The position numbers and the translations under genes are program-made. The notes beneath the pieces are model-generated. The model ran no database searches and was not told where the DNA came from. It saw only the letters and a program-made list of their open reading frames with translations. This document shows, piece by piece, positions 12,236 through 44,370 of a DNA stretch of 64,000 nt. The stretch comes from Isoetes taiwanensis (lineage: Eukaryota; Streptophyta; Lycopodiopsida; Isoetales; Isoetaceae): NCBI GenBank assembly GCA_021234155.1, contig JAJEKV010000008.1, positions 12,480,962-12,544,961 of the forward strand. Direction: 5' to 3'. Numbering within the stretch: the first letter of the stretch is position 1; each line of letters opens with the position of its first letter.

Positions 12236-12796
12236 TTAAATTTATATTGTAGCATGATTTTTCTAGCTCGATAATTAAGGTCCACAACAATAGGGTTATT
12301 TTTTTTGTTAAATAAGATTTTTTGTTTGTTTTTGGAGCAAATCAACAATAGGAGTTTGTTCTCTAGATAACAACAAATAATAAATCACGTGATTTTCGCC
12401 ACGTTAAGATAGGCAAGAAGATCTGGACCGTTGAGGGCAATTAAACAAGGCGGTGCCAACTATTTAGGTGCAGGAAGAGAGGGGCACGTTTACACGGCAG
12501 GAACAGTACTCCAGGAGAAGGAGCTTTTCTAAATAAAAGATGCAGTTCTTACGGCCTGGACGCAACAAAGAAAGGGCGATTGGGGTACTTTGGTCGCCCT
12601 TTCCTCTCCGGCCCTTTGTATAGGCAGACCTTTTTGGGGCTTCAAATATCGGAATCACAAGCTCAATCCTCAACCTCTCAACTCCGGCGCTTGAAGCTCG
12701 ATCTGGATATTCCATCATATACAAAAAACCGGTTTTTTTCCTCTTCTTAGCCCCTTTTTTCCTTGAATTTTAAGGATTTCTTTGGATTTCGCAACC

Positions 12797-13320
12797 ATGG
12801 CCCAGGAAAGTTGGAGATTGGGTATGGATGAGACTGGATGCCAGCCTCCGGAAGGACCCGTTCTATGTGCAAAGAACTGTGGCTTTTTTGGGAGTAAAAG
12901 CACCATGAATATGTGTTCTAAATGCTACCGAGATCATGTTTTGGAGCATGCAAGGGAAATTCCTGAACGGCCTGAATCGCAGAGGGCTTTAAAGCTTGGA
13001 GAACCTAGTGTCCCTTTCTTGCCGAAAGAAACCAGCGAAGCCACATCAATTTGTACGTCTGGAAGCAGCTCTGAGGATGCAAATGTTTCTGCATCTGTGG
13101 CAGGTTCTCAGGAGCACCAAAAAGCCTTCTAATCGTTGCTTTTCGTGCAGAAAGCGGGTTGGGCTTACTGGGTTCAAGTGTCGCTGTGGCAACGTTTTCT
13201 GCTCCATGCATCGCTACTCGGATAAGCATGATTGCTCTGTTGATTACAAGACTTTGGGCCGTGATGCAATAGCTAAAAGCTAACCCTGTCGTTGCTGCCA
13301 ATAAGATAGACAAAATTTAG
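12797..13320 (+). CDS. A20/AN1 zinc-finger stress-associated protein (two single-base shifts)
   Basis: The start ATG at 12797 sits in ACCATGG. The first frame gives the A20 finger [21 protein letters not shown] (Cys ligands all present) at about residues 22-43. A linker rich in Ser, Pro and Glu follows. The C-terminal AN1 finger reads [20 protein letters not shown], then [19 protein letters not shown], with the full Cys/His set. The AN1 part lies one frame on: the A-run at 13119-13123 has one base too many. A second extra base in the A-run at 13275-13278 hides the usual tail ([12 protein letters not shown], stop 13318-13320). Read through, the product would be about 173 residues, the usual size of the family. 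Such proteins act in abiotic-stress signalling and bind ubiquitin through A20. Perfect conservation outside two homopolymers argues for sequence error rather than a pseudogene. Confidence 0.92.
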
Positions 13321-24340: not shown

Positions 24341-24361
24341 TGGGTCCGAGCTTACTCCCAG

Positions 24362-24387
24362 TTTTCTCGGATAGCGAGTCGAGAACA
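24362..24387. repeat. degenerate palindrome of the copy-1 family
   Basis: TTCTCG, a short divergent centre, then GCGAGTCGAGAAC. The right arm matches the family found at 25.1 and 28.1-28.8 kb; the left arm is damaged. It is the outermost copy on this side. Confidence 0.5.
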
Positions 24388-24869
24388 AGAACAATAGAAC
24401 TCAAACAAAGGAAATTCATTACAGATTGAAACCAAAGTTCTAGTTGAAAAAGAATTTTTATTAATAAATTGAATAGGTACAATGTATTTTACATCGGACG
24501 CAGAGACCATGGCGGTCTTGCTGTCACTACAGTTACATCGTCGTGGTACGGTGGTCCACCTTAGAGGATTAACTTGCAGGGCTTCTTCATGCCATCTGTA
24601 AGCCTTGGGGGCAACCTGAAGAGGTGCCTCTGGAGCCAACGGCTGACCTGTCCACCTGACTTCTCCACCCTCCTCCCGCAGCTCTTCATCGAATATGCTC
24701 CTTCCCCAACCTCCGTGGATGTTATGCAATGCTTGCAAGATGCTTTGAGCTTTATGGACTATCTCAAATTTCTTCCCCTCTTCTTTATCCCGAGTGTGTG
24801 CATAGCGTCTGCACTCACGAGCAACCTTATCCCAAAGGCCGGGTAAGAGTGTAGCGTGAGCGGGATCTG

Positions 24870-24985
24870 TGCCAGAACAGTATCTCTGCCGCCTTGAGCG
24901 GGATCTGTGCCGCCTGGAGCGGTCTCTCTGAGGCCTAAACGGGATCTGTGCTGGTGCGGGATCTGTGCCTGAACCACCTGGAGCA
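24870..24985. repeat. short repeats of GCGGGATCTGTGCC
   Basis: GAGCGGGATCTGTGCC-like units occur four times with variable spacers (GCCTGGAGCGG or CTGAACC). They generate the Arg/Gly-rich ORFs seen here. Not interpreted as coding. Confidence 0.5.
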
Positions 24986-25097
24986 AGGAGAGTCTATGAT
25001 TAACAATTACGGTGCCATTAGTCAAAACGAAGAAAAGAATGGTGAATTCAAAATACATTCATTTCATGTAACTACATCTAATCACGTGGCAAGTAGT

Positions 25098-25371
25098 GCC
25101 TTTCTCGACTCGCGAGTCGAGAAAGGCCCGAAAAAGTCAAAGTACAACCATTTTCATTAGAATATGGCTGCATCCAATCACACACGGAAGCATACAAATG
25201 GTCTCGTCAATGAGACAAGCAATGCCTTTCTCGACTCGCGAGTCGAGAAAGGCCCAGGAAAACCAATGTACAACCATTATAGAATATGACTGCATCCAGT
25301 CACACAAACAAACATACACATAGTTTCATCAATAGGACAAGCATGCCTTTCTCGACTCGCGAGTCGAGAAA
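25098..25371. repeat. tandem 125-bp repeats, each with a long perfect palindrome
   Basis: Three units of about 125 bp lie 100-380 bases past the stop codon of the multidomain gene, probably in its 3' UTR. Each contains the palindrome whose left arm is GCCTTTCTCGACTCG followed by its exact reverse complement: 30 bases at 25098-25127 and 25224-25253. The third copy keeps a perfect 24-base core at 25348-25371. The spacers share (A/T)GACTGCATCCAATCACAC-like and GACAAGCA(A)TG blocks but have drifted, while the palindromes are nearly invariant. Confidence 0.92.
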
Positions 25372-25474
25372 GCCAGCGAAAACTCAATGTACAAGTATAT
25401 TCATTACAAAATATAGTACATTTCTTCATGTTTCTTTACAAAATTTACACAACTCGACTATCTGAAAGCAGAGG

Positions 25475-28400
25475 TCACTCTTCTTGATCACCATAATATT
25501 TGTCGTCCATAGCTTTCATGATCGCGCTGGTCTCTGGATCGACCTGCTTGAGGTTCGGATAGTTCCTAATCACATCGGCCACAAGAATGGCAAACAGGGA
25601 TTCCGCCAATACAGGGACGAGATTCATAGACAACTACCTATCCGTTTCATACTCTTCTGGACGATAAGTCTTGTCAATGATTGTATTTTACGAGTTATGA
25701 TAGCACTTGTAGGCGGAGTCGTCTATGATCCGCGTGTTGTGTTTGTTAAAGTCCGGGAATTGTTCATAAACCCTGTCCAGCCTTTTCACCATAATAGGCT
25801 TCCCCTTTGTGATGGCTGGATCGAGGTCTCACACATGCTCGACCCTTTCGTTTCCCCAAACAAACTTGAACTTCAAAACTGGAAGGCCGAGAACACCGAG
25901 GACATTGACAATATTTTTCTTTGCCATACAAGACCATATGGCCACTTCGAATCCCCGTTCCAGGCACCAATCAATAATCTCCTTTGCTTTAGGCCGGGGA
26001 TACACGATTTTAGACCCCACTTTTGTCGGTATCTGCGAGGTGTTAAGCTCAGGGACGTCTTTATCATGGTATACTGCAACTAATACTCCATTGACGTCAA
26101 ATATTACAAGCTTGGTGGGGCCCGATGGATCCCAATTGAAGTTTGGCTCTGACCAGATTTCCTCTTGATCGGGATCCATATGCGGGATCATTATTTTTTC
26201 GGGTCCTTTCTTGCTGCCCGCACTGTCTTGCTCTTGACTGCCTTTCTTGGATCCAGTATCCTCGTGATGTGAACTGCCAGTAGATCCTTGTGATATTGAC
26301 AATGATCCCGATTCGCTGTAATCGATGTCCCCGGAATGATGAAAACGCCGATAGGAACGCGTTTTCGCCGCGAAGCCGGAAAAGAAAAAGTTAAAGACTC
26401 GGAGCGTTTCCCGACTTCCGAGAGCAAAGTGAACTCACCTCAATCTCAGGTTCTCGAGAATATGTTCGGCAACATCCTCGTCTAAACCTTGGACATTCTC
26501 GTCTCCGTCATCTTTTCTCTCCCCGGGTCGCCGTTTGTCTTCGTCATCATCATCCCATCGCTTCCATTTTTCTTCCTCCCTTTGAAATGCTCATGAAGCA
26601 GGTCCAGGTATGACCGAATGATTTCAACCATGTCCTTATTTCCAACCACGGATATTGGTTTCATTCCATACAGTATAGCCCCCTGAGAGAACAGGCCATT
26701 CATGTACCACTCGCATACAATATGATCTTCCTCGACCAAGCTGGTTATGAAGTACTTGATAACTCTTGGCCGGATAGGAATTCTATGTATTGGACCTGTC
26801 GCACCATCAGTGCTGACTTTGTCCATCAATGGCACATCCTCCATAAATGTGCCACCCTTCCAGGGTTCCATCTGCTCTTGAGAAATCATGAACTTGTCGA
26901 GATAGTGGTGTTCGCTCGACCACCACTTGTCCAGGTCTGCAGCCGATCTTGAAACCAAAACCAAAACTACATTGGCAAAACTTGGTGCCTTTAGCAGTCC
27001 AAGTCTACACTCATGTTCCAGTTCGTATATGGAATACAAGATCTTGTTGGTGAAGTTAATATCAGCTGCCCATTGTGACACAACAGTTGTCTGATTGCCC
27101 GGCATGCAAAAGATAAGGAAACTGAAAGTATCCAGCTCGGTCATGTCGAGATACGTCTTGTACCACTGCTCAATGTCAGCCTTTTCATAAAATAGGGTGG
27201 GGTCTTCGATCATATTCATGGCAAATAGTGCCACGGGCCCACCCAGGTGCCAGTTCCAGACCACCAAACCCCTTGTGTCCCAAGGTTACCAGGAATGGAG
27301 GGGAGCTATCATCGATCTTAAATGGGACCACCCCGAATCCAAGCTTCCTCTTCAGAATTGCCATAGCACGTTCAGGAAAGGGGAGGGTTTTGACGTTACG
27401 CTTTAGCTTGGTGTTGATGTAGGGTTGACATAGACGGTTCAACTCCTTCATGTCTTCCTCATCAAGCGCAGCCTTCTCCTTATAATAATCAAAATCATGG
27501 TCTGCATTGGAGGCAAGATTGCAGAACTCTGTGATGCCTTCTTCCAATGCACGCCGTCTCTTTAGGATTGTGGCATAATCCGTTGCGTCCTGCATTTTTG
27601 AACTTCTACTTTTCCTTAGCAGGATTGTTCCATCCAGGATTCTGCCCTGTAGATCAAGCGTTTCCTTGTCCGTTAGGCCATGTATCCTTTTCATGAATTG
27701 CTTGTCGAACAACTTTGGGTCCGGCCTACACGGCAATTCTCCATTGCTGTCCTTCAGCTTGCCTCTTGTCCATTGAGCCCATATATCAGTCCATTTTTTC
27801 CAGACCGCCTCAGTGCTAAGAATGAGGTCATATTGGTCTGATAGAGATTCCCTGCACTTTCTTGGTGTTCTCTTCTTCTTCTCGTCTTCATCCTCTCCCT
27901 CATCATCTTCCTGGCCTTCCAGAAGAACATACCTGCAGAGTTTCTCAAAGGTCTTCCACTTATCGGAGGGGGCCCTGTTTCCTTTAGGACGCTGAGGACA
28001 ACCCAATGCTTTTCACTGTTGCCTAGCGTGTATGATCTGGTCAGGATACGGGCTGCATTCATTAAATGTCACAATGTCAGAGCATGAAAGTATCTCCTAA
28101 CACCCGAAGGAAACAATAAGCAGGAGGGTGCAAGGGGTTTCTCGACTCGCGAGTCGAGAATACCCACAGGAGAGGAGAAAACATAGGAGAGTCAAGGCCA
28201 GAGCAAAAGCATCGCGCATTCCCAAATCTTTGCTTTCACGCCTCTTCGAACGATGCAACTTAGGATATAAACTAAGCGACATTGCCCGAAGAGGCGGGAA
28301 AGAAAGATTGGGAAGACTCGATGCTTTCACTCTTCAACCATTAATTTCTAATGTTTTCTCTATTACCCTGGAGTTTCTTGACTCGCGAGTCGGGAAAGTC

Positions 28401-30123
28401 AGAGGACCACAGGAAAGGGGAAGATTCAAGGGACTTTCTCGACTCGCGAGTCAAGAATACCCACAGGAGAGGAGAGAACATAGAAGGAGAGTGAATGCCA
28501 GAGGGAAAGCACCGCTTATTCCCAAATCCTTGCTTGCCCCGCCTCTTCGAACGATGCAACTTAGGAAATAAACTAAGCGACATTGCCCGAAGAGGCGAGG
28601 GAAGAAAGGATGGGAAGGCTCGATGCTTTCACTCGTCAACCCTTAATCTCTAATGTTCTGTCTTTTGCCCTAGGGTATCTCGACTCGCGAGTCGAGAAAG
28701 TAAGAGGAGCACAGGAAAGGCGAAGATTGAAGGGGCTTTCTCGACCCGCGAGTCGAGAAAGCCCCTTCAATCTTTACTTTTCTTTACTTCTCTGGGGTTT
28801 GCGAGTCGAGAAACCCCTGAATCAGAAACAGTAATTTACCTTATGTAGCTGGCACTTGCTGCTATTGTGTTCTGGCAGTGGCTAATGCTGGCGAGCTCCG
28901 TTGGTGGCGTGTCCGCTGAAAGAACTCTGCACTCTCGTTTGGAATATCTGTCCTTGATCCTTTGCGGCACTTCCTTTTCCGTCTGCAATACCTGCGCTGC
29001 CCTCACTGAATGTTGGCCGCCCACAACCCAAAACCTGACGTCTTTTCCCTTCAGGTCTTCCTCAGACTTCCAGCTGAACAACTCACCGGTCGATCTGCTG
29101 AATGGTATGACATCCGCAGGCATTGGATCTGCAACAAGATGTCGCACCATCAAGTTCAGAATCTCCAACATGTGTGCTGGATTAAATTCCCTGTGGTTGA
29201 ACAAGACAGCATCTCTTGTGCAAACCTTGAGGCGTCTGATGTCCAGCAGCAGCTTGTGTGATATCCCTAATGGATAATACTGAGCCAGCCACTCCATCTT
29301 CTGGGCCCCTCTCTGTGATTTCCTAATCTGCTCATCTGGATCCAAGAATTGGGAGTCGACCATATCTTCCTCTTCGTCAGCATCTGAATCCTCCCGTGTA
29401 CTCTCTGCTTCATCTGCAGTCTTGTCCGGAGTTTTTTCTTTATGAACTACAATATCCATGGAAACTGCCGAGTGCTTTAGAGTCTTTAGCACCCTGGACG
29501 TAACGATCCCAGTGTTGAACAGCTTCTCCCTCACCCTGGAAATCTCCATTCCAAGCTCCCTGGATGTCAGGGTTCCGGCCTCCTTCATCCCTTCCAGATC
29601 CTTCCACCCAAGGTTCTGACAATTTAAAGGCGCCGGCCTTTTGTCGGTCCCCTTCGACTTGCTCATTGAAGAGTGAGAGTAATTGGATACTGATAACTTC
29701 TTCGTGTGGTAGAACTTACTCTTCAGGCAGTCTTCCACATACAATGTAAGATGCTTCGAATCTGGGGCAGAGACGGAGAGCACAACATCGACCTTCTTGT
29801 ACTTGTCGCCGGAGCTCTTCTTATCCCTTTGCCACAGAAACAGATCTTTCTCCTTCCCACTTGTTGATACTTCGACATACCACCAAGAATCTGCTGGTGT
29901 ATCAAGTAGCTCTGTCTCCAATCCCTCGATAACGAAGAACGGAGTTCTGCCAGTGATCACTAGCGTCTCCGCAGTGAATGCCGCAAAGACGTAAAGATGG
30001 ATCGATAAAAGGTATCCCGACCGAACACAAAACCGAGAGCTCACCCGAGTCACGTCTTTCTTTTCTTGGTGCCGCTTTTGAACCAACTTCCGCTCCGGCC
30101 CGCTTCTTCAATGGAGTCGTCAT
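25475..30123 (-). CDS. ParB-like / methyltransferase-like / FCP1-like HAD fusion protein, copy 1
   Basis: Four exons. Exon 1 runs from ATG 30123 to 30045 (MTTPLKKRAGAEVG...); exon 2 ends at 28840 and its start is uncertain; exon 3 is 28052-26439; exon 4 is 26315-25475. Exon 2 ends in a ParB/sulfiredoxin-like domain (PMPADVIPFSR, then FWVVGGQHSVRAAQVLQ). Exon 3 is acidic and helical, then shows a degenerate beta-class DNA methyltransferase pattern: EDPTLFYEKADIEQW at the motif IV position, then ITSLVEEDHIVCEWYMNGLF at motif I, so the usual Gly-rich SAM loop is poorly kept. Exon 4 is an FCP1/NIF-type HAD domain: KLVIFDVNGVL (second Asp is Asn), AIWSCMAKKN, NTRIIDDSAYK. Lesions: TGA at 28013-28015 where copy 2 has Trp; one extra base near 27275; one missing A near 26585; stops at 25829-25831, 25688-25690 and 25634-25636. 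Nuclear action on DNA is inference; it may be a decaying selfish or domesticated gene. Confidence 0.72.
28053..28839 (-). repeat. intron 2 of copy 1: palindrome array in a 300-bp tandem duplication
   Basis: The intron has donor GTAAAT (28839) and acceptor TGCAG (28053). It holds palindromes with arm TTTCTCGACTCG or close variants at 28138, 28374, 28435, 28676 and 28738, plus one lacking its left arm at about 28794. Positions repeat at about 300 bp because a unit with two palindromes is tandemly duplicated; its spacer includes GCCTCTTCGAACGATGCAAC and AACTAAGCGACATTGCCCGA in both units. The palindrome at 28738 extends to 52 bases (28723-28774) with a single central mismatch pair. The copy at 28374 carries two changes that leave T-G pairs if transcribed. 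Confidence 0.9.
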
Positions 30124-30249
30124 ATTCAGATGCCCCGCATCCTCTTGCTCGCTCAAACTCCTTTGTAAATTGAGCCTCTTCCACTTTGGAGGTTTTAGGA
30201 CTACACGTAAAAAAGGTCGGGCGTGTTCTTAAATTTGAAATTAAGGACA

Positions 30250-30612
30250 TACAATCATTCAAGGGAAAAAAGCGGGGCTAAGGGTACAAAGACGCCAGCT
30301 TTTTAGCCCGCCCAAACACCAATTCGAAATTCATTCATTTCGGGGACTTAGTGAGCGCAGCGGAGATTTCCGGCGCTTTAGTTTTACTCGGCATTGGCGA
30401 CTTTGGGGTTATATTACATCGACCGGAGGCCCTTCGATTTGAGCGAGTTCACGGATGGCGCCACGACGCTGTAAGCTCCTAACAGCGCCTTACTCTCTGT
30501 CTATTTCTAACTGCGTGTCTTTTTGCAAATAGTTGATTTGATCGATGAGCACGGGGCTAAGGTAGCAAGCGGAGAGGAGCTGTAACACACGGGAACTCTT
30601 CACTGCAGCGCC
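30250..30612. other. intergenic stretch between divergent genes
   Basis: This lies between the start of the minus-strand multidomain gene and the plus-strand DUF7869-like gene, so it may hold both promoters. I see no clear TATA box. GGCGCC-type and GCTTTTTAGC-type short palindromes are present. Confidence 0.35.
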
Positions 30613-31146
30613 ATGGAAGAGGGATACACGAGAATCGCTTTGATACAAGTATTTGATGCGGATGCATTGTTGATGAGGCCAACAGAAGAAGCCAAGACTC
30701 TCGGTGAGGCTGCGAGATCTGTGATACAATGGCCCAAGGAATTCCTACGTGAAGAGGTGAGTTTCAGAAAGGCCTTTTTCATTCTCAAAGTGCAACACTT
30801 GCATTCAACTCAAGGATACACTTGCATCAACTGCAATAGAGAAAGAAAGAATGGCAATTAGGGAGCAATTTGCAGATCACCAAAGGGACCAAATATCATG
30901 TAGACAGCTGTATTGGCCTTGGAGAACATTTTCTCAGATGCAGCCTGACAGATTTTTGTGTCTAATTCATGATAAGATGGACCAATACAAGACTTTCTTG
31001 CCAAAGCTAGATCCTTTACCCAAGCGTTGTCAAAACGCTTTTCAGATGAAAGTAAGTCTGGCGGGTGTCTTAACACATGGTCATGGAACTGGAACCTATG
31101 GTCATTTTGTGCTTGATCTATGGAGGGATGATCCAAACTTCCATGT

Positions 31147-31606
31147 GAGCTACCGGCCCTTTGATGGGCTTTCGGCACTCTTCCACTGAGTCATTCTTCA
31201 TGTGTGCCCATTACACATGCTCCAGCATTCCAACATTCCCCCTTAATGGGCACACCAATCCATTCCAGCCTTCACCACAATCCACATGCTTCCCTCCTCG
31301 GGCAACTCCACCACTGCGGGAGTTGGGCTTTCCACTGGCCAAGCTTTGCTCATTCTAACCCCTACACCACTGGGGATTATCCCGGTGCAGTTAAGCACCC
31401 TCTACTTGGGACCATGGCTCTGATACCATGTTGAGAAATGAGATTTCTATGATTGGGTAGACAGGCTAGGGATCGAACCCAGGACCTCTTGCTTGCAAGC
31501 CAAGTACTTTACCACTGAGCTACCGGCCCTTTGATGGGCTTTCGGTACTCTTCCACTGAGTCATTCTTCATGTGTGCCCATTACACATGCTCCAGCATTC
31601 CAACAT
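31147..31606 (-). mobile_element. SINE-like insertion with partial tandem copy
   Basis: A 90-bp block (31147-31236) recurs almost exactly at 31517-31606, 370 bp on, at the junctions with the interrupted DUF7869-like gene. Between them, on the minus strand, lies a tRNA-like head and a non-coding body ending near GCTCTGATACCATGTTGAGA, a stretch reminiscent of plant SINE tails. The arrangement fits a SINE-like unit with a partial second copy. Confidence 0.65.
31457..31529 (-). repeat. tRNA-Ala(TGC)-like sequence, SINE head
   Basis: GGGCCGGTAGCTCAGTGG, an anticodon arm CTTGG-CTTGCAA-GCAAG (anticodon TGC) and a T arm CTGGG-TTCGATC-CCTAG are present. The acceptor pairing is imperfect and the D and anticodon stems each have a mismatch, so this is a tRNA-derived repeat rather than a functional tRNA gene. 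Confidence 0.65.
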
Positions 31607-33627
31607 CATCAACCGCTTTGTTACCAAAGGCAGATAAAAAAGCTCACATCCAAGGTGTCCAGTGAATCAAGGAGGACTGGGATGATTTCCCCTTACTTGA
31701 GAAACAACTACCAGAGGAGCTATGTGTTCAATTGGACAACTGTTGGAAAGAAAACAAGAATAGATGGATGTTTGGGGCAATGTCATACTTGACAGCAGTG
31801 GGAGTATTCAAAGTTGTGAAAGTGGGATTCATGATAGTTGGGCATATGCATGATGATATAGATGCATTCTTTGGAACTTTCTCCACCAAGGTCAAGGGAG
31901 AAAACGTGACTAGTCTCCCTGAACTAATGGATGTGTTTGAGAGTTGCATTGACCCCAACCCAATGGCTTTCTTGATGGATGAGGTTGCAGATTGGAAATC
32001 ATTTGTCGAGGGATACTTGCTATATGGTAAGGATCAGTTGGACAGACACACAAAGCCACTTCAATTCAAGGTTTGGTTTAGGGATGGAATACCAATCATG
32101 CAATATAAGTGGAGACCAGAGTTGTGGCAACGTGGTGCTGCTGTGAAGTTCTCATTCCTAAAGGGCAGCCAAAACCACTACCTCCCTTCAAGACTGTTAA
32201 AGACTCTAGCCAACTAGTGAAGGGCATCAAGGATTATATAACACACTGGGATGATGTTCGAAATAGAAAGCACACCTCCACTCTTAAGAAAAATCACATG
32301 GACTCCCTACCAGATGGGAGGGTTCTCAAGAAGCAAGCACGTCTAAGAATGTTCACTTGGGTCCTAACAAAGGTTCCAAGTGGTTTGTGGGAAGTAAGGC
32401 CTCAAAGCCGAAGTGGTTTGATCTTCCTGAGTGGGATCCCTTTGAGGACATCAAGGAAGGATACTTTGTGCTAGTAAGGCCTGATGATGAGGATTGTCCA
32501 ATATGGTTAGGGGTGGCACTCTCTGATGTAACCACCACTATGGCTGATGGAGAGGAGTTGCGTCCTGGATTCCAAATTCAATATTGGGAGCCCATTGGAA
32601 GACACAAGAAGGGCAACTTGAAGGAGCAATACACCGACTGCCGGGAGAAGAAGTGGAGGGCAAATCATGCTGATCCTCAAAGGAGGGAATTGGTGGAGTG
32701 TGTGGTATGGTCATATCCAAGTTCTCACATTGCAAAGGACAACACACACAAGATCCCAAAAAGGGAGATGGACAAAGCCATGAGCAACCTCCATGCTATA
32801 TCATTGTATGAGGGTAGATAATATTGAGAAGCTTGAAAACTTTCTCAACTAGTGGTTTGTAAAATTTATGAGGAAAACAAGTTACCCAATTCTTTGTGTG
32901 TGATGTGTAATTCTATTCAAGCAATCAATTCAGAATTTTTTTTTCTATAGTATGAGTCCCATTTTCAGTCCGAGTCCCAAAATTTGAGATTTGACCCACT
33001 TTAATTAAATGCGACTTTTAACCATCATTCAAGTACCATTATTCACTGACAGATAGGCAGCTGAGTAGATACAGGGAATTGTACTACTCACACAAGATGT
33101 TGGCAGATCTCTATAGTACACTACTGCTTCTGATGAGTAAGCAAGATATTCACCAGCTGCTGATGGAAAATGGATCTGAATTCAATAGCTACAAGTTTGG
33201 GACAAACTCCGGTTTCTATTGGGTGTCTACAATGCCATATTTGATCAAATTATGCAATCCCCATCACCTTAGCCATCATCCTTTACCACTCTTCATTAGC
33301 CTTATCTAAATCGTGCTTCCATTTCATATTTGCTACTGCTCAGTAATTAATCCTCCTCTTGTCCAACATTTTGCTCAAGCACTTGGAAAGAATTTTGTCC
33401 TTGCAGGTTTTTTGAGATCGACTGTTCATGATTGATGCTGCTTTCAGGTTCACATATTAGCTCCTTCAATAGGGGCATGGCAGAGTTAATTACCTTTCCT
33501 TATGCAATATCTTGTTACTTCTAGCAGAGCTCTTTTTGGTTCATTTGAACAACTCTATACTGCTACTTAATTATGTAATTGTTGCTGTTATGATGTAGCT
33601 AATGAGAACACTACTCTCATTAGTAAC

Positions 33628-33690
33628 ATTTATGTATGACTTTTATTAATTAATGGAAAAAACACTCTTACCTTAAAAAAAAAAAATTGG
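33628..33690 (+). repeat. poly-A tail of a retroposon
   Basis: GACTTTTATTAATTAATGG, then AAAAAACACTCTTACCTT, then an A-run. A closely related string with a longer A-run occurs at 54803-54868, so both are 3' ends of the same retroposon family, body unidentified. Confidence 0.65.
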
Positions 33691-33904
33691 GATGATGTCT
33701 TGATTTTGGGATACATTTTTAATTGCAAGTTTTTAGTAACTTGATTAAATTCACTAACGTTAACTTAAAATCACACATCTTAACTTAAATTCACACACCT
33801 TAACTTCAAATTACAAAATCATATATCAACTGCTCATGTAGTACACAACTTTTCATAACTGTGACTGATACATATTAATGAAGAAAGCATATTTACATAG
33901 TTTT

Positions 33905-36290
33905 TTATTTTTCCTCCAGCATCCCCAATGATATGATAGCCTTATTCCTTACATCCTGAGGTATTGTAACTCTCACATTTCTACCTGGAATAGTTTTTGG
34001 AGTCCACGAGTACAATACGGTTTCAATGTCTAGCCAAAGATCAGGATCAAAAGGATTTCTCCTCCACCTCTTTGTCCAACAATCTGAATATCTTTCTTTA
34101 TCGGTGACATTACTCAATTGATGCACTGGACACCACCATTCTACACGCACCTTATTGAAGTTAACATTACCTTCTTCTTTGCAAATATCTGAGATGGTGT
34201 ATCCCAACCACACTGGATAGGTATCTAGATCTACTGGTTTTACTACTACAAATTGGTGGCACTCCACGTCAATAGAAGCTTCATAACAATCCATGCCTAG
34301 ATATTTTGGCCTATCCTTCTTAGGGCCAACATAGTGTTTGTCAGATTGAGGAGGAGCATATGCCTTAACAATGCTACTAATAGTACCATCATCTTCGTCA
34401 GCACCTGCTAATGTTTTCCACATACTTTTAGGGAACCACCCTTCTTTCAGCTCTTCTGAGGATGTGTCTACCTCATCCAACAAGTTAATCACCTTCTTCC
34501 AGTAATCTATCAATGCACGATTAGTCTCATCCGAATTAGTTTGCCAATGCTTGATGTAGTCATTGATGCCATCCTTAGTCAATCCCAATTGTTTCACTTC
34601 TTCATTCGATTTTAGAGCCTTTGGTTGATCTGAAGGTATCATAAGCTTGCCATTCGCATCCCTATGCCAAATTTCTGTCCCACCTCTCCACTTCTCCTCT
34701 GAAGGTCTCATTTTCCATTCCATGATTAGAATACCTTCTCTCACCCAAAAAGTGAATTGAAGAGGTCTAGAATGACCTTCCATGTCGAGAGCATAACATC
34801 CACAAAACTCTTCCAATCAGGCACTTCTTATATGAGAGATCTTATAGGAGATGGAGTAGTACATCCATGAAATATTCTCAGTAGCCTAGGAAAGTTGGTC
34901 ACTATCTGTTGTCTTAAGACATAACTATATTTTCCAAACAATGCATCCACATCCTCATGAGTATGTCCGGGCATTAGGAACCCCAAATTGACTCTTTCAA
35001 AAGTACCTACAATTAGGTCCATGCCTCCTGAACCTTGCCTTGCTAAACTTTTCAATATTGTTAGGGTTTTCATCCAACAATGCACTATGTAGTGCCTGGC
35101 TAGCTATAGGATCTTGGAGGTGACCATTATAACCATTCTCATAGTTTCTTAAACACCTCATGATACTCCCAATGTAAAAATCTGGGCCATCACTCCACAA
35201 CTCCAAACTAAAATGCCCATAGTAGGTTTGAGACTGCCGTGCAAGATTGCCCCAGTCATTGAAATCTGCAAAGGGTATGATCTTTCACATGACTTAGGTA
35301 TGTACTTGAATTGTGGAAGACAAGTCTTTTGTTGGTCATATGGTCCTTCATATATTCCCTTATCTTAGCCCTTAGACTTGGTTGCACAGTCTTATCTAGT
35401 GTCTCCTTCAGCTTAGCGCATAAATTGCACTTTGCAAAGTTATTTGAAGTTGCTATGGTCACATGCTTGAAATGCTTATTCCATAGCCTACTAAAACGGG
35501 CTAGGATATAGACGCCACTCCAAGTTCCCGAAGCAATGCATTTATTTCCTCTAATATGCTCTTCTGGGTACAATGGGATGGCAATCTCTTTTCAACAACT
35601 CCTCTACCCTGTACATCCTTCTTACTCTTATGTGGCATGCTTTTTGCATTGAAATCCACATATCTTTCAAATATTTCCTTTGCAGCTATAGTTCTTGAGG
35701 TAGACCTTACCAGGCCAGTGTTCCCGTGCAATGCAATTCTACTGCCAGTTTCATGTCTCTTTAGTTGTGCTAAGAAGCGGTTGTAATTCCATGTATAGCC
35801 ATCCATGCTTTTGAACATATCCACTTTCCGTTCAATGGAAATCTTTTCTTCTTTGATCTTTCATCCCGAATTGCATAGCCAAATATGGTGTACATGAAAT
35901 TCCTCCTGCTATCACACTTATTTTCCTAATATGTACCTCTTTCTCCCACCATCTCGTCTATTGTGAACATTCTAATACATGAGGCCCAACAACATTCACT
36001 TCCCCAAACCTTCATCAAGGCTTCAGGAGAACAATCATAATCTGACTTGCATCTTTTGATGGGATAATGTTTGAAAGTTGGAAGTGGCCTCTTGCTACAC
36101 TATGTGAATATTATTGACAATAGTTCTGCATCTATAGGTAACATGTAGTTCCCCTCCAGTTGAATACTGTCCCTAGGCCATGCCACAATAGTTGCAACCT
36201 CTAGTTGCTTCACACAAGCAAGGCATTCTTGTTTGCCTGACCCCTTTTCCTTCCAATTGTCATATAATTTTGAGATTGCCACACCTAACC
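33905..36290 (-). pseudogene. DUF7869-like transposon-type protein, copy B
   Basis: Read from high to low: VKQLEVATIVAWPRDSIQLE (WP-motif block, about 36160-36200), SKAWMAIHGI, TSRTIAAKEIFERYVDFN, KHVTIATSNNFAKCNLCAK (about 35420-35470), HFSLELWSDGPDFYIGS, then LGFLMPGHTHEDVDALFGKY (about 34920-34990). A 303-codon C-terminal frame (34816-33905) is similar to the C-terminus of copy A over its length: SRPLQFTFWVREG, PVWLGYTISDI, ERYSDCWTKRWRRNPFDP. Compared with copy A, the stretch holding MDQYKT and the preceding YWPWRTF block is not found, suggesting an internal deletion near 35240. Frame changes and stops (for example near 34815) show decay. The two copies are tail to tail, about 1.1 kb apart. 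Confidence 0.75.
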
Positions 36291-36941
36291 TGTCCTCTCC
36301 TAATCTTTCATCATTGACTGCATTGATAGGATCTGCTAGAACAATAATCCCTTCTCCTACTACCTCTCTATTGCATTCATGCAGGATCTTGACCTTTTTG
36401 TTTTTTCAATCGACCCGAGTATAAAGTACAATTTCCTTTCCTTTGGCATCATCCTTTTCATTTGGGGTCTTTTCCTTTCAATTGCCATCATCAACATCAT
36501 TTAGAGTCTTTTCCTTTCCTTGGGCATCATCTTCATCATTTGGGGATTTTTCCTTGCCTTGGTCATCATCATTGGGGGCATTTTTTTAGCATGTTACATG
36601 CCATTGACCTTTAATACATACAAACATAGAATAAGTTAGTATATCCAAAAAACATCTCCCCAACATGTCCTTAAATGAAAGCATACTTTTTTTAATCAAT
36701 AAAGAATAGCATACTTTATAAAAAATTGTGAGAGGGAGTTCTTTGATAACTTCTATAATAACTTCTTCGATACTATCTATCTATATGTATGCATCTTTGT
36801 TTATGATGACATTTTATTTCTATTACATCTAAGGCACCATAAGGCTATGCATGTCATCAATTCCTCATATATCTTATTTTATGTCATATAAAATCTGGTA
36901 AGTAATGCTCTCTGCCCTTAAGTAGATCTATGTATCATATG

Positions 36942-36967
36942 CTTTTTTTTTTTTTTTTTTTTTTTTT
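36942..36967 (+). repeat. T homopolymer, about 26 bases
   Basis: Pure T-run just before the first palindrome of the copy-2 family. It may be the reversed poly-A of a retroposon or a simple slippage repeat. Confidence 0.8.
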
Positions 36968-36989
36968 ATACTATGATATGCTAGTATGG

Positions 36990-37725
36990 ACGAAATCGCG
37001 CTTGGTGCATTTTAATTTTGCCCTTTTCATTTCCTGCAAATTTATTCAAAATGTGCCAGGCGCATATAGAGTAGAACTCTTAAAAAAACACCCTTTAGAA
37101 AACGCGTCTGGCGCATTTTGAACATAAAACTTTTCAGATTATTTTCTGGCGAGAGGAATATTATTTTCTAATTAGTTAATTTCTCTCGTTCTAGTGCATT
37201 TCACATGGCTTATTCTCATTCAAGTACACTTCCTTTGGACGACAATCAACGCTGGACCATGTACAAGTTACTTCTTAATTGTGCTGTTCAAAACCTACAA
37301 AAAGAGATGGATAAGCCATTCGACAATCTTTATGTAAGGCCATGGGAATGCTACCATCGCATCACGGGGTTTATCCGACTCTTCAGGCTCTTAGTGTATC
37401 TCATGCCAACAAATAAATATGAGGATATGATTAGGAAGGCCAGAGATCGACGGGATACTCTGATATGGGGACTCAACATTCCCAATGAATGGGATGACGG
37501 TGTCATATCAAAGTGGTACAGTGGCCACGTGACTCGTTATCTTGCTGATCAAGTGGGCCTTTGTGACATTTTGTAGAGATATGTACAGCCTTATTGTGTT
37601 AGATATGTACAGCCTCCTATGTTAGTTTGGAAAAAACTTGCGCCTGGCGCATTTTGACACACAAAAAAAAAATCTACATTTTATTTTGTGAATATTAATA
37701 TAATCTCGCGCCTGGCGCAATTTTG
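36990..37725. repeat. copy-2-family palindromes around the 123-codon ORF
   Basis: Five more or less degenerate copies of the palindrome with arm AAATCGCGCC lie here: about 36993, 37048 and 37099 upstream of the ORF, and 37633 and 37701 downstream. All keep the central GCC(T/A)GG or a one-base variant. The same family fills introns of copy 2, linking this stretch to that gene. Confidence 0.75.
37205..37576 (+). CDS. hypothetical 123-residue protein
   Basis: One uninterrupted frame starting at ATG 37205 (MAYSHSSTLPLDDNQRWTMY) and ending at 37576. The product is mixed alpha-helical in appearance, with several Trp, Arg and Tyr residues (YVRPWECYHRITGFIRLF; IWGLNIPNEWDDGVISKWY). It has no signal peptide or membrane segment and no family I recognise. 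It is unusual here in being intact. Palindromes of the copy-2 family flank it on both sides, so it may be a passenger or an accessory gene of the same unit as copy 2 at 38.7 kb. There is no TATA box I would insist on. Confidence 0.45.
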   Translation: MAYSHSSTLPLDDNQRWTMYKLLLNCAVQNLQKEMDKPFDNLYVRPWECYHRITGFIRLFRLLVYLMPTNKYEDMIRKARDRRDTLIWGLNIPNEWDDGVISKWYSGHVTRYLADQVGLCDIL

Positions 37726-38026
37726 TACTGCAGACTTTTATCTCACAAGACTTTTATTATGTTTTCTTTTATATGCAATGTCAGAAACGTTGAAATCCTT
37801 TGATGCCCTCTAGTCAGTCTGACCAACCTCAAGAAACTACACATTTTAATTAACGTGTGGTTTTCTGGGGTTGATAATACTGGCTAAAGAGCATAAAAGA
37901 ATGTTCAATATTCATACCATGACGCACATGTTATGATATATTTAGATTATGTTTCAGTAGTCAACAGAATTATACACACACCTTTTTCAGACGTTCTTTT
38001 GGCCATGCTACAATTGTGCCCACGCT

Positions 38027-38281
38027 TTAGCCAACTGTATCGCCACCGGGATGTCTTCGCGGAAGAGCCTCATCCTCATAATTGCAATTTATAATCGAAA
38101 TCTTACAGAAACTATTTCCAAGAGGAACACCATGGCACATAGAACTTGGATTCAGATCTTCGACTTTACATAATCCTACTCGGCGCTTCAAGTTTGCTGT
38201 TAAAAGATAACATTCTCCGACACTGATAAACAACCAGAATGATAGAATTGGCATGAAAAAAAACAAAACGAAGCTGTGCAT
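38027..38281 (-). other. hypothetical ORF, 84 codons
   Basis: The frame from about 38220 to 38027 reads VGECYLLTANLKRRVGLCKV and continues to PRRHPGGDTVG. It is divergent from copy 2 and lies between it and the 123-codon ORF. The composition looks like coding sequence, but no family is recognised and the N-terminus is doubtful. Confidence 0.25.
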
Positions 38282-38593
38282 ATTCAGAATGGAATGACAC
38301 TCACCGTAGTTCAGCCGACATGATCGATTGAAGACTTGGAAGATGGTCGATTGAAGACGCTCAAGATGCTATTAGAAGCGGGTCGGTGATCTTGGAAGAT
38401 TAGGTGGAAGTAGCTTGCCACATATGCATTTTTGAAAATAAGAATTAATTATTTTCTTGAAATTGCAATAAAAAGAAAAGCACATTAAAAAAATGTAAAT
38501 GAGCGGGATGGGCGGTTACTTAAGGTGGTATAATTTTAAAATGACGGGAATTTGAAATGACGGTTCTAATCTGACGGCTTAGATTATCAACCC

Positions 38594-38605
38594 ATATATA
38601 TAAAT
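38594..38605 (+). promoter_or_regulatory. TATA box of copy 2
   Basis: CATATATATAAAT about 50-60 bases upstream of the ATG at 38655, which starts a short Gly/Ser-rich exon. The spacing fits a TATA box with a short 5' leader. Confidence 0.5.
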
Positions 38606-39059
38606 TTGAACCAAAACTCCAGTCTCATAACATATCTTCCGAACTTGCAGTTCTATGGCATCTGGAGGATCTGGCAGCCGCGGCTGAGGCGCAGGTAGAG
38701 GTGGGCGACATGCCAAAGCAACCCAGGATCTTGTTGAACAAGCTGAAAGTACTAATCCAGCTAGCCGTTCAGGTAATCATCAAAATTTTCTTATATATTT
38801 TGTTTCTGCGTCCCTCTTTTTGTTAGGTTTATCGGATGTTTTTCTTTAATACTAGAGTTATTATCCGCTAAGAAGCACATGTCCTCTAATACTTCAGTTC
38901 ATATATCCCAAGATGTATGCAAATATATGCTATGACGAGATATCTTTATTTTTTGATATTTCTTCATGTTGTGTTTTCGTTCATTTCTGTATCCACTATT
39001 TTTAGTCTTCTATAGTTAGTTGTGCTTTCAAATGAAGATTAAAATCTCTAAGGTCGGTT

Positions 39060-39230
39060 TTAAAGCGCGCCAAACGTGTATTTGTTGCATATATTCCAAG
39101 AATTATATTAATTTCTTATCTCTGTATCCTATACTGACAAACCCCTTTTGTTTCGGACAAAATGCCCCTGGCGCAATTTAGACTAAGATTATAATCTCTC
39201 AAAGTTTCAAAGCGCGCCAAGCGCGTTTTT
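39060..39230. repeat. copy-2-family palindromes in intron 1
   Basis: Degenerate copies lie at about 39062, 39159 and 39205 (AAAGCGCGCCAA-GCGCGTTTTTG and variants). They are less regular than those in intron 2. Confidence 0.6.
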
Positions 39231-40423
39231 GTTGCATACGTTGCAAGTTAGCATATATTTTCACATTTCAACATTAACGTTATGCTATCATTCTGCAGGA
39301 ACACAAAGGACAATCAAAAGGAAAATCAAACTCAGTCAAACATCTTTAGCCCAGAAAAAGCAAAGGACAGATGAAGACGTTACCGTTACAGACCTACAGC
39401 ATGTGTGTTGACGTTAGAATATACATCTGGAATAATAAAGGCTCAGGTAGAACCTCCATGTCCAGAAGAAGATCTTATAGAGGGGTCAGAATGATATGTC
39501 GAGATCTTTAAGACTAATGGGAAGACAGATCTTATTTTCATGTCTAGGGTAAAAGAGACTGATTAAATGAAGAAGCAGGGAATTGTTATCACATGCGAAG
39601 AATAGGACGATTCATATTGTTCAGTGTTCGTTGAAGTGGGGCAAAAAAAATAAGAAGAGCCTAAAAAAGATTAATCGGTGCAGTTCTAGTTATTTTAAAG
39701 AGACTGTCCTAAGATCAGACGACACTGTCGACACCTTGTTCAAATTTGGTTGGACAGTTGGTGAGCCATTGACACCTAAAAGAATATGCGAAGGGCTTTC
39801 AACTGTACGACGTGCCATCAGCACGAGGCCCTCAGGCAGTGTCTATATGCAGGTATTGAAGGATAAGGAAGATGCAAGTTCTAGAGGCAGGGACACTACA
39901 GAAGTTGCAGCAGGCCTTATAAGTGATGATGACAAGGCCAGGCAGTTGGAGGCGATGAGCAAGCTCAAAAAATATGCTGACAAGTATCCACTGGGCCTTA
40001 GCTTCACCCATCCCGTCCACGTCGATAGGTTTTTCAGGTCGACTAAAGCTATTTATGTCAGCAGAAGTTACGACAAGCAGCACTCCTTGGAGTTAGTCAA
40101 CAGCATGATCGAAAATCTAGGGCAGATACCAATGCCGGCAAATGTAATGCCTTACGATACGAAGAGAGGAAGGTACTCATGTGGAACAAGCTGGAGGACT
40201 TCATCGACAACCAAGACGTACATTTCATGATAATAGATGGCCAGCACTCAATTGAGGCTCAGAAGGTTCTGATGTGGAAGGCACAGAATACTGGAAATCA
40301 GTTGTTCTATAGGCTGTATTCGGTCAGCAACTGCAGGCTCTTGAGCGGCTCAACAACTCCTACCGAGCTAGCCGAAATCAGTGCACTTCTTAACGACATG
40401 GGAAAAACGTTTCTGTACAAAAG

Positions 40424-40814
40424 GTAAATCTTTCTTCCCTCTCTTTTCGTTTTCGTATTTGCAAATCGTGCCAGGCATGATTTGCCTATTCAGAAACTCG
40501 ATACGTTTAACTGAGTATTCTGGTTAGTCAAATCGTGCCTGGCACGATTTTCTTCTATTTTGAAATCGCGCCAGACGCGATTTGCATATTCAAAAACGAG
40601 AATGCTTCAACCAGTGAAAGCTGCCTCCTTTCAAAATACGCAAATCGCGCCTGGCGCGATTTCCCTTCTATTCTGAAATCGCGCCAGACGTGATTTGCAT
40701 TTTCAGAAACGGGACTGTGTGTTAACCAGTGAAAGCGGTCTCTTTTTAGAATACGCAAATCGCATCTGGCGCAATTTGTTGTTAATTTGGAACTAACAGA
40801 TTTATTTTTCGCAG
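40424..40814 (+). repeat. intron 2 of copy 2: tandem palindrome array
   Basis: The intron starts GTAAAT and ends TTCGCAG, at the same site and phase as intron 2 of copy 1. It holds six palindromes (arm AAATCGCGCC, one central base, reverse complement) at 40463, 40530, 40563, 40642, 40676 and 40757. They form pairs within units of about 100-113 bp that share TTCA(A/G)AAAC, AACCAGTGAAAGC and AATACGCAAATCGC. The copy at 40642 is perfect. The copy at 40530 is also perfect but with arm AAATCGTGCC, meaning matched changes on both sides. Confidence 0.92.
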
Positions 40815-42736
40815 CCCCTATATACAGCAATTGCGGCATGCTCATAACCAATGGATAGAGTATGGGAAATCAATGCCAACCAGACAGGGTCAGTCTAAAA
40901 GCGTTGAATTCAAATTGCTAGAAAGGACACTTTGTCAGACTATAATACAAGATAAGAGTAAGAGCACCAGGGCGAAGAGAAAAAAAGGAGATGAAATGGA
41001 GATCCTTCCGAAGCCCCTACTATACCCAAGGATGCCTGCAAAATAATTTTTGCTTATGACCAGGTCTGAGAAAAATGGAACGAATTCTGGGATGCCTACG
41101 TGGAGAAGAAGTTGTCTGATTCACAAGGCAAATTTCCTCCTGTTGACACATCAATATTCGATCTCCATGTCACAGAGATGAGGAAGTCCCAGGGATTAGA
41201 CGATGAAGAACTGATTTCGGTTCTGGACAGGTGCATCAGAAAAGAAGTCCTTTACAAGAAAAGTTCTGCAGCGAAGGACAAGGTATCATTTGAAGACGCC
41301 TGCGACCAACTGAAAAATATTCGAGTGCTCAGGATGGCAGTTGGAGCGGAGTTACAAAAGGCTTACAGGTGAGTGGTCTAGGACTAATGCAAAAATACGA
41401 CGTCTCCAATGATGATCTGAAGAAGTATGTTTTTTGGTCGAAAGACTTTGTCAAACAGCAGAAGTTGAAAAACGTTGCAAACCTGCGTGGGATTCACACG
41501 AAAGTGGCATCCGACTTGAAAATAAAAGTCGCATTGGTGAAGTAGACTCCGAAGAAGAATCCACATTCTTTTACCAAGTGTCCACTGGTTTTAATACAAT
41601 TCCAGATGTGGGTAAAGGACCGCATGATATCACACTCTTCATGCTTGATAACCGAGGCATCAGATGGTCGCTTCATGACTGTAATACATTCTATGATACA
41701 TGCGGTGGTTTTACGACAGAAATGCATTATACAATTGTCACAATTTACCCTCCGACATGTCCTATGCATATGCTCTATCTGCTGCAAAGGATTTAGAATG
41801 CGTTAAAGTGATACGGCAAGCAATCCTTATAGATGAAAATAGGGACAGTGAGTTTAGCACAGAAAGTAAAATCTCTCATGTGCTAATCATTATGATAGCC
41901 ATGATGGATGATAAGGAATATGAAAGGCTTAAGGAGAAACCAGAAGGCAAAAAACTTACATGGCAGTGCTATCAGCTAGATGAACCCCTCCTGCAAAACG
42001 TCTTCTATCTTGAGCAAACTATTGAAGATAAGGGGAAGGGTGTCGTAGATGTGGAACAGCGAGAACTTGAAGAGGAAGATGAGAAAGTAAACCAGCTCCT
42101 AACGTCAATTAAGGGGATGCTAAACAAGAACGCGTTCTCTATGGGCTTTTCTCATTATCTCGTTGAAGCATTTTGCGCATTGGGGGCAACTTGCTGGGAG
42201 CTTTATGTCGGAGGTTACATCGATAGGGAAGCTTTGAAGTTAGCAAGGAAATGCCAAAGCGTCGTCCTCGATGATCGATCCAAGCATTTCTTAGAGCTCC
42301 TTTTTTAGAAAGTGCTAGAGGAAGCACCTAGGGGTCCAATCGGCAGTGCAAAAAGCAAAGCTTCTAGCTCTAAGGCTGAAATACCTGCAGATTTGGCTAA
42401 AGAACGGGAGGCTATGAGACGGCACCTGGCTAGCATCAATATGGATATCACCAAAGAGCAGATAGTGGTTCCGGATCCTGTCGAAACGTTCGACATGCCT
42501 GTGAACATCGAAGATAAAGAATAGGATGAAAATAATAAGGATGAAGATAATGACAGGGATCGAGAGTCGAAATCTGAAAGCTCTAACCAGGTTAGCGTAA
42601 AGAGTAATGAACTATCAACCATAGTTCAAACTATACAGATCTTAACTGATGTGGTTGATGCTTCTAGCAGACCGGAGACAACACAGAATAAAGAAGCAAT
42701 GGAAGAATACACCACGAGGATTGATGAAGAAGAAAG

Positions 42737-42938
42737 GTATTGTGGCCAAGCTCGTTGTCTTATGATATTCATGCATTTTACTAATGACGCGCATATGGAA
42801 ATCGCACCTGGCGCGATTTAGAGTTTCCTTTGGTTTCATATTTTTAGAATTTGTTGACATGCTTCTTTGTATAAATCGCGCCTGGCGCATTTTCTTATTC
42901 CATTTCTTTCATCTCATACGTATCTGTTTGCGTTACAG
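42737..42938 (+). repeat. intron 3 of copy 2 with two palindromes
   Basis: A 202-bp intron between GTATTG and TTACAG. Palindromes of the AAATCGCGCC family are at 42799-42819 (one mismatch) and 42873-42893. The matching 123-bp intron of copy 1 (26438-26316) lacks this family but has the inverted pair GAAAACGC / GCGTTTTC near 26340-26365. Confidence 0.8.
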
Positions 42939-43808
42939 ACATAGTTCAGCTTCCCCAAAAATACTGGTCTTTGATTTGAATGGTGTGCTATGCAGAACGT
43001 TACCTAAAGCAACATTTGATAAGTCATGATATGCACAGAAACCATTTGAAATGCATACCAAATATGTTTACCTGCGCCCTTATCTGAAAGAGATGTTGGA
43101 CCAGGCCTTTAGTCTGTTTCGTTGTGCAATTTGGTCATCTATGGAACATGGAAATATACATGAAGTTTTGAGAGTAGTGCCTGAGCTAAATAGAGATTGG
43201 GCGTCCATCTAGGATCAAAGCAAATGTGCTTCATTTACAAACCCTAAGGATCTGACAGGTAAAAAAATATTTGTGAAATGCTTGCGCACCATGATGGATG
43301 CTCTAGGTGTTGAGGAAAAGGAAGGCATGATCATGGTTGATGATGACGCCCTCAAGTGTTGCTTCAATCAGTCACAGTCATTAAATCCACGATCCTATCA
43401 TCCTAATATGTTTAGCACAGATGACTTTCTACTTCGTTTTATCAGTGCCTTGCAAGAAATAGCTTCCGAAAAATCGGTCAAAGAGATACAAACACTATAT
43501 CCACAACTTGATTGGATGGGGGAAATTGACAGGGACCTTGAGAAAATTGTTCTAGAAAGGGAACTATTTTGATATATGTATACCGAAAATATACTTTGCA
43601 TAAATATTTTGAATATGAAATATATTTTACACAAAAGCTTTTGAATATATATTGTGTTATTGTAAAATAACTTTGCAATGTTCTATGGTGTTGATCTTCT
43701 CTGATTATTAGAGACGAAATACAACTGTCTGTAGCAGCATTATTGGTTCTGTATATGTATTGTATTATTCTATTATGTATATGATTTACTATACGTCCAA
43801 TAATTTGT

Positions 43809-44060
43809 ATGTATATACCGTCAATAATTTTGATGGGTATAAATAGATGTGCATCATTGTACCTCCAGCGAGGCATAGAACTTGAAGACTGGCTGACTGT
43901 CGTTGCTATGAATCACGTCTGCTTCTATCCTGATCCCTTCGATGTTGCGATCCATCTGCTATGGAATCTAGATCATGGTTTGTTCATGATCAAAAAGGAT
44001 CTCGGGGAGTTTTTCCCGTTGATGATGAATCGAATAGTTTTTGGCATTTATGTTGTTTGA
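43809..44060 (+). other. hypothetical ORF, 83 codons
   Basis: The frame includes LQRGIELEDWLTVVAMNHVC and FYPDPFDVAIHLLWNLDHGL. It follows copy 2 directly. The composition is protein-like, but no family is recognised. It could be an exon of another gene or a remnant. Confidence 0.25.
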
Positions 44061-44370
44061 TCATGCTATATTTATGCCAACAAAATCGCGTCGGCAAACT
44101 TAATCCCGAACTCACTTAAATCTAAGTTTTGTAGCCACTTGCTTGCCGTTATTTATTGAAAAAAGGCTTCTTATTTTACTCTATAAATTTCGTAGTTGTC
44201 CATGATGGTATAAAATAATATGCAATTTTCTACTTTATGGGTGATTTGCATCGTATTTTTGAATGTCGTTCAATTTCAACACAAAATGCATATTCCCAGG
44301 CTGAAAATGAACTCAGTGCAAAAGTATGGTTAATTCAATACAAAGGTAAATAATACTTACTAGTTATGGT

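Follow-up and report, generated by a model that had tools for sequence, protein, structure and literature searches.

A 64,000-nt stretch of nuclear DNA of the land plant Isoetes taiwanensis (contig JAJEKV010000008.1, positions 12,480,962 to 12,544,961, here called the window) contains two inverted two-gene units, and each of them carries one of two diverged copies of a fusion gene with predicted ParB-like, helical, methylase-like and NIF/FCP1-like parts. Each copy is very probably the decayed accessory gene of a two-gene DNA transposon with terminal inverted repeats (TIRs), mostly about 12.1–12.8 kb long and flanked by a 4-bp target duplication, with a divergent partner gene encoding a DUF7869 protein and with palindromes between the genes and in introns. 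The element with its ends and target duplications, the gene order, the count of ends and a purifying-selection signature are shown from the sequence. The original prediction had read the copies as a pair of spliced plant genes; given the TIRs and target duplications, they are instead interpreted as decayed transposon genes.

Two transposon families in the Isoetes genome

Repeats were sought in the window's own assembly (1,658,258,908 bases in 1,110 contigs). Exon A of the minus-strand copy (copy 1, family 1) has 103 matches in it, 62–100% identical, with 99 of 5,217 first-look candidates scored and with its own match and the second pieces of four loci included. The DGQHS-containing piece of the plus-strand copy (copy 2, family 2) has 150 matches, its own included (150 of 2,919 first-look candidates scored). 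For family 1, 10 kb of sequence was read from each of eight copies, with flanks added for four of them, F280 being the only one that has both ends; family 2 is represented by two copies, G1 and G2.

The complete element F280 spans 12.77 kb between AAGTCGCATTTAATTAAAGTGGGTC and GACCCACTTTAATTAAATACGACTT, its TIRs match at 28 of the 31 terminal positions, and it is flanked by the 4-bp target duplication AAAA. Exact matches to the family-1 end pattern AAGTCGYATTTAATTAAAGTGGG number 2,990 in the genome (1,472 forward, 1,518 reverse), and the reversed-pattern control has none. Ten end pairs, picked because both ends were listed, were tested for duplications, and all ten have one of 4 bp, with one pair matching over 5. 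The 21 neighbouring pairs among the ends listed on contigs C1–C78 form several size classes: ten are 2.6–4.6 kb apart, nine 10.7–12.5 kb, and the remaining two 14.6 and 24.8 kb. Two of the short elements that were read in part, L244 and L245, with ends 4.0 and 4.6 kb apart, have in these parts only 168–193 terminal bases and the palindrome in common with F280; they look non-autonomous, and since they match only its terminal bases, the accessory gene appears dispensable in cis.

The family-2 TIR was derived by comparing the left end of G1 with the right end of G2. Its end sequence AACCATCATTCAAKTAAATTGGGATTATG yields 749 and 745 exact matches in the two orientations (1,494 in total) and, again, none in the reversed control. 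Fifteen pairs of 12.1–14.0 kb were taken from the listing for spacing, 13 of them being 12.1–12.8 kb and two 13.8–14.0 kb long, with six further neighbouring pairs at 18–28 kb left out; ten of the fifteen were chosen for duplications, and all ten have 4 bp. The TIRs of the two families match at 17 of 23 positions. The accessory gene of G1 has open frames (exon A, 382 aa; exon C, 373 aa; NIF, 232 aa), as does its DUF7869 gene (784 aa, E = 1.4e-36). This description gives an anatomy to two repeat families of a quillwort genome, whose exact ends number 2,990 and 1,494.

An identity of the two copies as host plant genes in which domains are newly fused is extremely improbable. Splicing, the conserved domain order and purifying selection would suit such genes, while the TIRs, the target duplications, ends numbering in thousands and the 103 and 150 scored matches speak against them, as does the broken state of both window copies.

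The two units of the window

Features of the units are listed in Table 1. The left TIR of unit 1 is the sole match in the window when up to three mismatches are allowed, and has none. A TIR search within the window alone gave nothing above controls, because the right end of unit 1 and the outermost bases on either side of unit 2 have been lost.

Table 1. Features of the two transposon remnants in the window (coordinates are window positions).
Feature	Position	Strand	Remarks
Unit 1, remnant of family-1 element	24291..33017	-	similarity to F280, F282, F283; right end lost
Three family-1 palindromes, 3' of copy 1	25096..25375
Copy 1, NIF/FCP1-like domain, DVNG motif	25541..26115	-	PF03031 37.5 bits, stops read as X; stops at 25829-25831, 25688-25690
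Copy 1, exon B-C, helical and methylase-like parts	26440..28052	-	in-frame TGA 28013-28015, frame change about 27235
Five family-1 palindromes, intron 1 of copy 1	28139..28774
Copy 1, exon A with PMPADVIPF and GGQHS	28839..30107	-	open frame, 423 aa
Unit 1, DUF7869 gene	30761..32818	+	PF25273 E = 1.2e-35 for 31666-32214; interrupted about 31152-31604
Unit 1, left TIR AAGTCGCATTTAATTAAAGTGGG	32995..33017	-	same end in F280 and F283
Unit 2, remnant of family-2 element	33684..44353	+	matches G1 from 33684 onward and G2 as far as 44353; outermost end on each side lost or altered
Unit 2, DUF7869 gene, broken	33908..36405	-	PF25273 E = 6.1e-12 for 34831-35103; open 784-aa relative in G1
Family-2 palindromes (AAATCGCGCCWGGCGCGATTT type), scattered in unit 2 spacer and introns	37093..42893
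Copy 2, exon A with DGQHS	39277..40424	+	start approximate; frame change near 40160
Copy 2, exon B-C region	40815..42521	+	stops 41067-41069, 42306-42308; frame changes
Copy 2, NIF/FCP1-like domain, DLNG motif	42940..43572	+	PF03031 60.3 bits, stops read as X; stops 43027-43029, 43210-43212

The DUF7869 gene is divergent from the ParB-like/NIF gene in each unit, and the same divergent pair is observed in F280, F283 and G1. The DUF7869 genes of units 1 and 2 are likewise diverged relatives of each other, the best E-value between them being 3.8e-18. The DUF7869 protein probably is the transposase of the element, a role assigned here by inference; no mention of DUF7869 was found in the open-licence literature, and in a search of viral contigs, sensitive to close relatives only, neither exon A nor the DUF7869 part had a match.

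In all eight family-1 copies similarity to unit 1 starts at window positions 30778–30783. As the palindrome-containing spacer between the accessory and DUF7869 genes occupies 3.1 kb in F283 and 4.1 kb in F280, unit 1 most likely is missing an intergenic spacer of about 3–4 kb at 30780–30783. Inside its DUF7869 gene, 91-bp direct repeats, 98.9% identical, bound the region 31146–31606, with a tRNA-Ala(tgc) call on the minus strand at 31456–31529; this region looks like an insertion, since it is missing from F280 and F283.

The fusion gene and its domains

The two diverged copies were found where they had been predicted, at 25.5–30.1 kb on the minus strand and 38.7–43.6 kb on the plus strand, and are collinear, with blastp E-values between frames of 1.3e-11 (the GGQHS/DGQHS part), 1.7e-10, 1.4e-8 and 4.6e-4. 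The joined alignment contains 197 identities in 760 aligned positions (about 26%). A common exon structure and domain order had also been proposed; the position and phase of intron 1 are indeed identical in the two copies, and the order of ParB-like, helical, methylase-like and NIF parts holds in both families, except that the methylase-like part is detected in family 1 only. As this order persists in families about 26% identical, the fusion appears to be real as a sequence feature.

Both copies are disrupted by in-frame stops and frame changes (Table 1). At the in-frame TGA of copy 1, copy 2 has Trp; the frame change in exon B-C of copy 1 is absent from its relatives. Copy 2, with several frame changes, has a fifth stop at 42522–42524, and at three of its five stop positions the open relative G1 has Trp. 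The initial approximately 30 residues of the copy 1 exon A frame are probably noncoding, because stops cluster there: 21 of 40 stops fall at frame residues 19–30 (in 37 exon A rows, eight of which are second fetches of the same copy).

The core of the ParB-like part is DGQHS in 24 of 29 relatives, so that GGQHS of copy 1 is a variant, with GG also seen in one other locus, L264. The predicted PMPA-V-PF pattern upstream is present as PMPADVIPF in copy 1 and PMPANVMPY in copy 2. For comparison we used 71 viral DGQHR proteins, which had been collected with VIDGQHR as the motif (80 frames, with seven spurious or short ones and two duplicates dropped). Aligned by hhalign against this reference, which was chosen by the same core, the two window copies give P = 4.3e-6 and a score of 39.6, with at most 21.9 in 100 shuffles; singly, copy 1 yields P = 2.2e-4 and copy 2 P = 3e-6, the 31-row family-1 profile P = 3e-7 (over 19 columns only), and G1 with G2 P = 9.8e-6. 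The YbdM family, tried as another ParB reference, had no match. In tblastn searches of phages and plasmids no hit reached E = 1, a sequence search of solved structures had none below E = 0.1, and PHROGs and NCBIfam gave nothing convincing; a helix-turn-helix in the accessory protein was not detected by Pfam. The ParB-like assignment is plausible and draws on the DGQHS core and little beyond it; of the predicted ParB/sulfiredoxin-like context, the core matches DGQHR proteins, and around it no clear similarity is detectable.

For the methylase-like part the reference comprised 44 YhdJ-type sequences (beta-class N6/N4 DNA methylase, PF01555). Copy 1 alone matches it with P = 0.00093 over 176 columns (score 29.6, at most 21.9 in 150 shuffles), both copies together with P = 0.0024 (28.0, at most 24.7 in 200 shuffles), and the 9-row family-1 profile with P = 0.00096 over 179 columns (30.7, at most 21.8 in 100 shuffles). 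Among controls, the reversed query scores 12.4, AccC, PanF, DusB and AcrE 11.4–17.8, and PrmA, another methyltransferase, 55.2. Pfam reports no methylase match in the accessory protein. By eye, the DPPY/NPPY and DPF.G.G motifs are absent from G1, from the two window copies and from seven rows from the same genome, one of which does not extend far enough to cover the second motif. A methylase-like region is therefore only weakly supported, and in family 1 only: the degenerate beta-class pattern of the original prediction survives as a weak profile similarity there, with no detection in family 2 and no catalytic motifs.

The NIF/FCP1-like domain is a firm assignment, in line with the predicted FCP1/NIF-type HAD domain. 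PF03031 is matched over the whole domain in G1 (60.6 bits, E = 1.9e-16, cut-off 21.8), and both window copies exceed the same cut-off (Table 1). NIF/FCP1 phosphatases have the catalytic motif DxDx. The Isoetes proteins, resembling these phosphatases over the whole domain, differ at this motif, which reads DVNG in copy 1 and DLNG in copy 2 and G1; with Asn in place of the second catalytic Asp in both families (D-[VL]-N-G), phosphatase activity is doubtful.

Selection on the accessory gene

The ratio of nonsynonymous to synonymous substitution rates (dN/dS) for exon A has a median of 0.20 (interquartile range 0.16–0.26) at a median dS of 0.357, calculated for 435 non-independent pairs of 30 copies, namely the 29 best-scoring loci and the window copy. 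The simplest reading of these sequences is that the gene was kept functional while the element spread, and that it decays after insertion.

This bears on another explanation, by which the accessory gene is captured passenger cargo with no part in the movement or survival of the element. Such cargo would agree with the short elements L244 and L245, given how little they match F280, and with the giant Ectocarpus transposons, most accessory genes of which are functionally uncharacterised (PMC12477816, in part). We consider it rather improbable, as the same partner is retained in two families about 26% identical, dN/dS is near 0.20 in one of them, and this kind of gene recurs in algal transposons (PMC12477816, in part).

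Palindromes

The perfect family-1 palindrome TTCTCGACTCGCGAGTCGAGAA has 3,678 exact occurrences in the genome. Fifty listed places of these were compared with the ends listed on contigs C1–C78: 37 of the 50 (23 of 30 clusters) are situated on the inward side of an exact family-1 end at a distance of up to 13 kb, with 2.3% expected per place, and none is situated on the outward side only. The 16-base core of the palindrome is located inside the element in all five cases in F280, all seven in F282 and all six in F283, the limits being set by similarity or the edge of the stretch for F282 on the left and F283 on the right. Four palindrome loci of about 3 kb each (L244–L247) all have 168–298 terminal bases in common with F280 and no other match longer than 120 bases, and an exact end is present in three of them. 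The family-2 palindrome, found in unit 2, G1 and G2, is different, and the family-1 core is absent there. Intron 1 of copy 1 contains tandem repeats, each about 300 bp long, at 28138–28759, together with palindromes and a 58-bp segment that has inverted ends.

Each type of palindrome had at first been considered a feature of a single unit; the palindromes were then taken for mere genome-wide repeats (3,678 exact copies of the family-1 type), a view overturned by the concentration inside elements. This concentration, seen for family 1, suggests that they are candidate binding sites. Binding of the accessory protein to its own palindromes is conceivable, at somewhat less than an even chance, and the observations are also compatible with binding by the DUF7869 protein. 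Attribution of the sites to the DUF7869 protein or a host factor, and not to the ParB-like protein, is likewise possible, if tentative: the palindrome is also present in the two short elements, and the accessory protein has no helix-turn-helix detected by Pfam; on the other hand, nothing in the data separates the two proteins. Somewhat unlikely is an origin of the palindromes as self-spreading repeats piling up in introns and spacers. Their arrangement in copy 1, in tandem arrays whose unit measures about 300 bp, and the places outside recognised elements, would be expected of such repeats, and are opposed by the strong confinement to elements and by the different palindrome of each family.

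Proposed roles and points against them

In the scheme we propose, the DUF7869 protein would cut and join the ends of the element, and the ParB-like part of the accessory protein would bind the element's own DNA, perhaps at the palindromes. The accessory protein may then act as a scaffold that aids transposition or shields the element from silencing. The methylase-like and phosphatase-like parts, given the changes at their catalytic residues, may serve as binding or recruiting modules and not as enzymes. A bolder version is that land-plant giant DNA transposons have a parS-like system of their own, in which a ParB-fold protein whose methylase and CTD-phosphatase-like domains are both dead binds family-specific palindrome arrays and protects the element from silencing or links it to transcription; we regard this version as unlikely.

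Several observations weigh against the interpretation given here. The account as a whole rests on genomic sequence. The eight closest exon A pairs have dN/dS of 0.16–0.67, and the copies used were the best-scoring ones. Thirteen of the 50 listed palindrome places are in no recognised element. Neither copy 2 alone (P = 0.21) nor the open exon C of family-2 G1 (P = 0.37) gives a methylase match. AlphaFold assigns the methylase-like part, from a two-row alignment, a predicted local distance difference test score (pLDDT) of 38.6; for the ParB-like part, from a three-row alignment, the value is 40.3, both too low for the models to inform on the fold. When the seven core residues are masked, the ParB-like signal disappears (P = 0.29 for the pair, 0.49 for copy 1, 0.42 for family 1), and hence the support comes almost entirely from the core; with the same mask copy 2 gives P = 0.065 with the N-terminal part in register, and G1 with G2 P = 0.11, out of register.

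Other features of the window

A reverse transcriptase fragment is identified at 6835–7620 on the minus strand (PF00078, E = 2.5e-7), and a Trk/HKT cation transporter-like exon at 61612–62361, also on the minus strand, with a TrkH match under the cut-off (E = 0.0022). By eye, 12767–13280 on the plus strand may encode a protein of the A20/AN1 zinc-finger type. Elsewhere in the same genome, the stretch C923:1380299-1391686 contains a piece 100% identical to that of unit 2 at C923:1380299 (next best match, 90%) and, about 10 kb away, an 80% match to the family-1 exon A (C923:1390604); judging by these matches, it is perhaps a duplicate of the region described here.

Comparison with known systems

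The Sola1 superfamily is characterised by 4-bp target duplications. Both Isoetes families share this length, a likeness in the duplications. KolobokP composite-like transposons reportedly have a His-Me finger endonuclease as the second domain; they and the Isoetes elements are DNA transposons with an unusual second domain, and differ in the superfamily and in the second protein.

Fusions of a ParB-like part with a methylase had been noted as known from phages and bacteria, and phage cases are documented: phage proteins join the ParB-CTPase fold to the N6_N4 methyltransferase PF01555 (PMC12704722, in part). The Isoetes protein resembles them in having a putative ParB-like part and, in family 1, a weakly supported methylase-like region of this class, whereas those described in the available part of this source are prokaryotic or viral and have no NIF domain; in its main text, as available, the words plant, transpos- and phosphatase do not occur (PMC12704722).

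The closest known case is the 21.5-kb transposon Sola1-1_Ec32 of Ectocarpus, where the gene opposite the transposase encodes a 1104-aa protein with ParB-like and N4/N6 DNA methyltransferase parts, proposed to bind and modify its own element; green and red algal ParB-methylase cases are cited in the same source (PMC12477816, in part). By analogy, the Isoetes elements are of a known kind, transposons with a ParB-methylase-type accessory gene: in both, a protein of this type is encoded opposite the transposase, a putative one in Isoetes, of a large DNA transposon. Unlike Sola1-1_Ec32 as described in the available part of that source, the methylase-like part in Isoetes has no catalytic motifs and is detectable in just one of the families, and the protein acquires a NIF/FCP1-like domain, neither NIF nor phosphatase being mentioned in that part (PMC12477816). 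By its annotated domain the partner differs, carrying DUF7869; the elements are 12–13 kb long compared to 21.5 kb, and they reside in a land plant. The open-licence literature yielded no description of the added NIF domain or of an occurrence in land plants, which is weak evidence of absence. What appears new, then, is a form from a land plant that combines a NIF domain with a methylase region devoid of motifs, palindrome arrays and a DUF7869 partner.

If this is true, ParB-methylase accessory proteins of transposons span algae to vascular plants, with the methylase motifs lost and a phosphatase-like domain gained in a gene still under selection. The question of what use such a protein is to the element when unable to methylate DNA becomes testable, and the two Isoetes families, with two diverged proteins and two palindromes, offer a natural cross-binding comparison.

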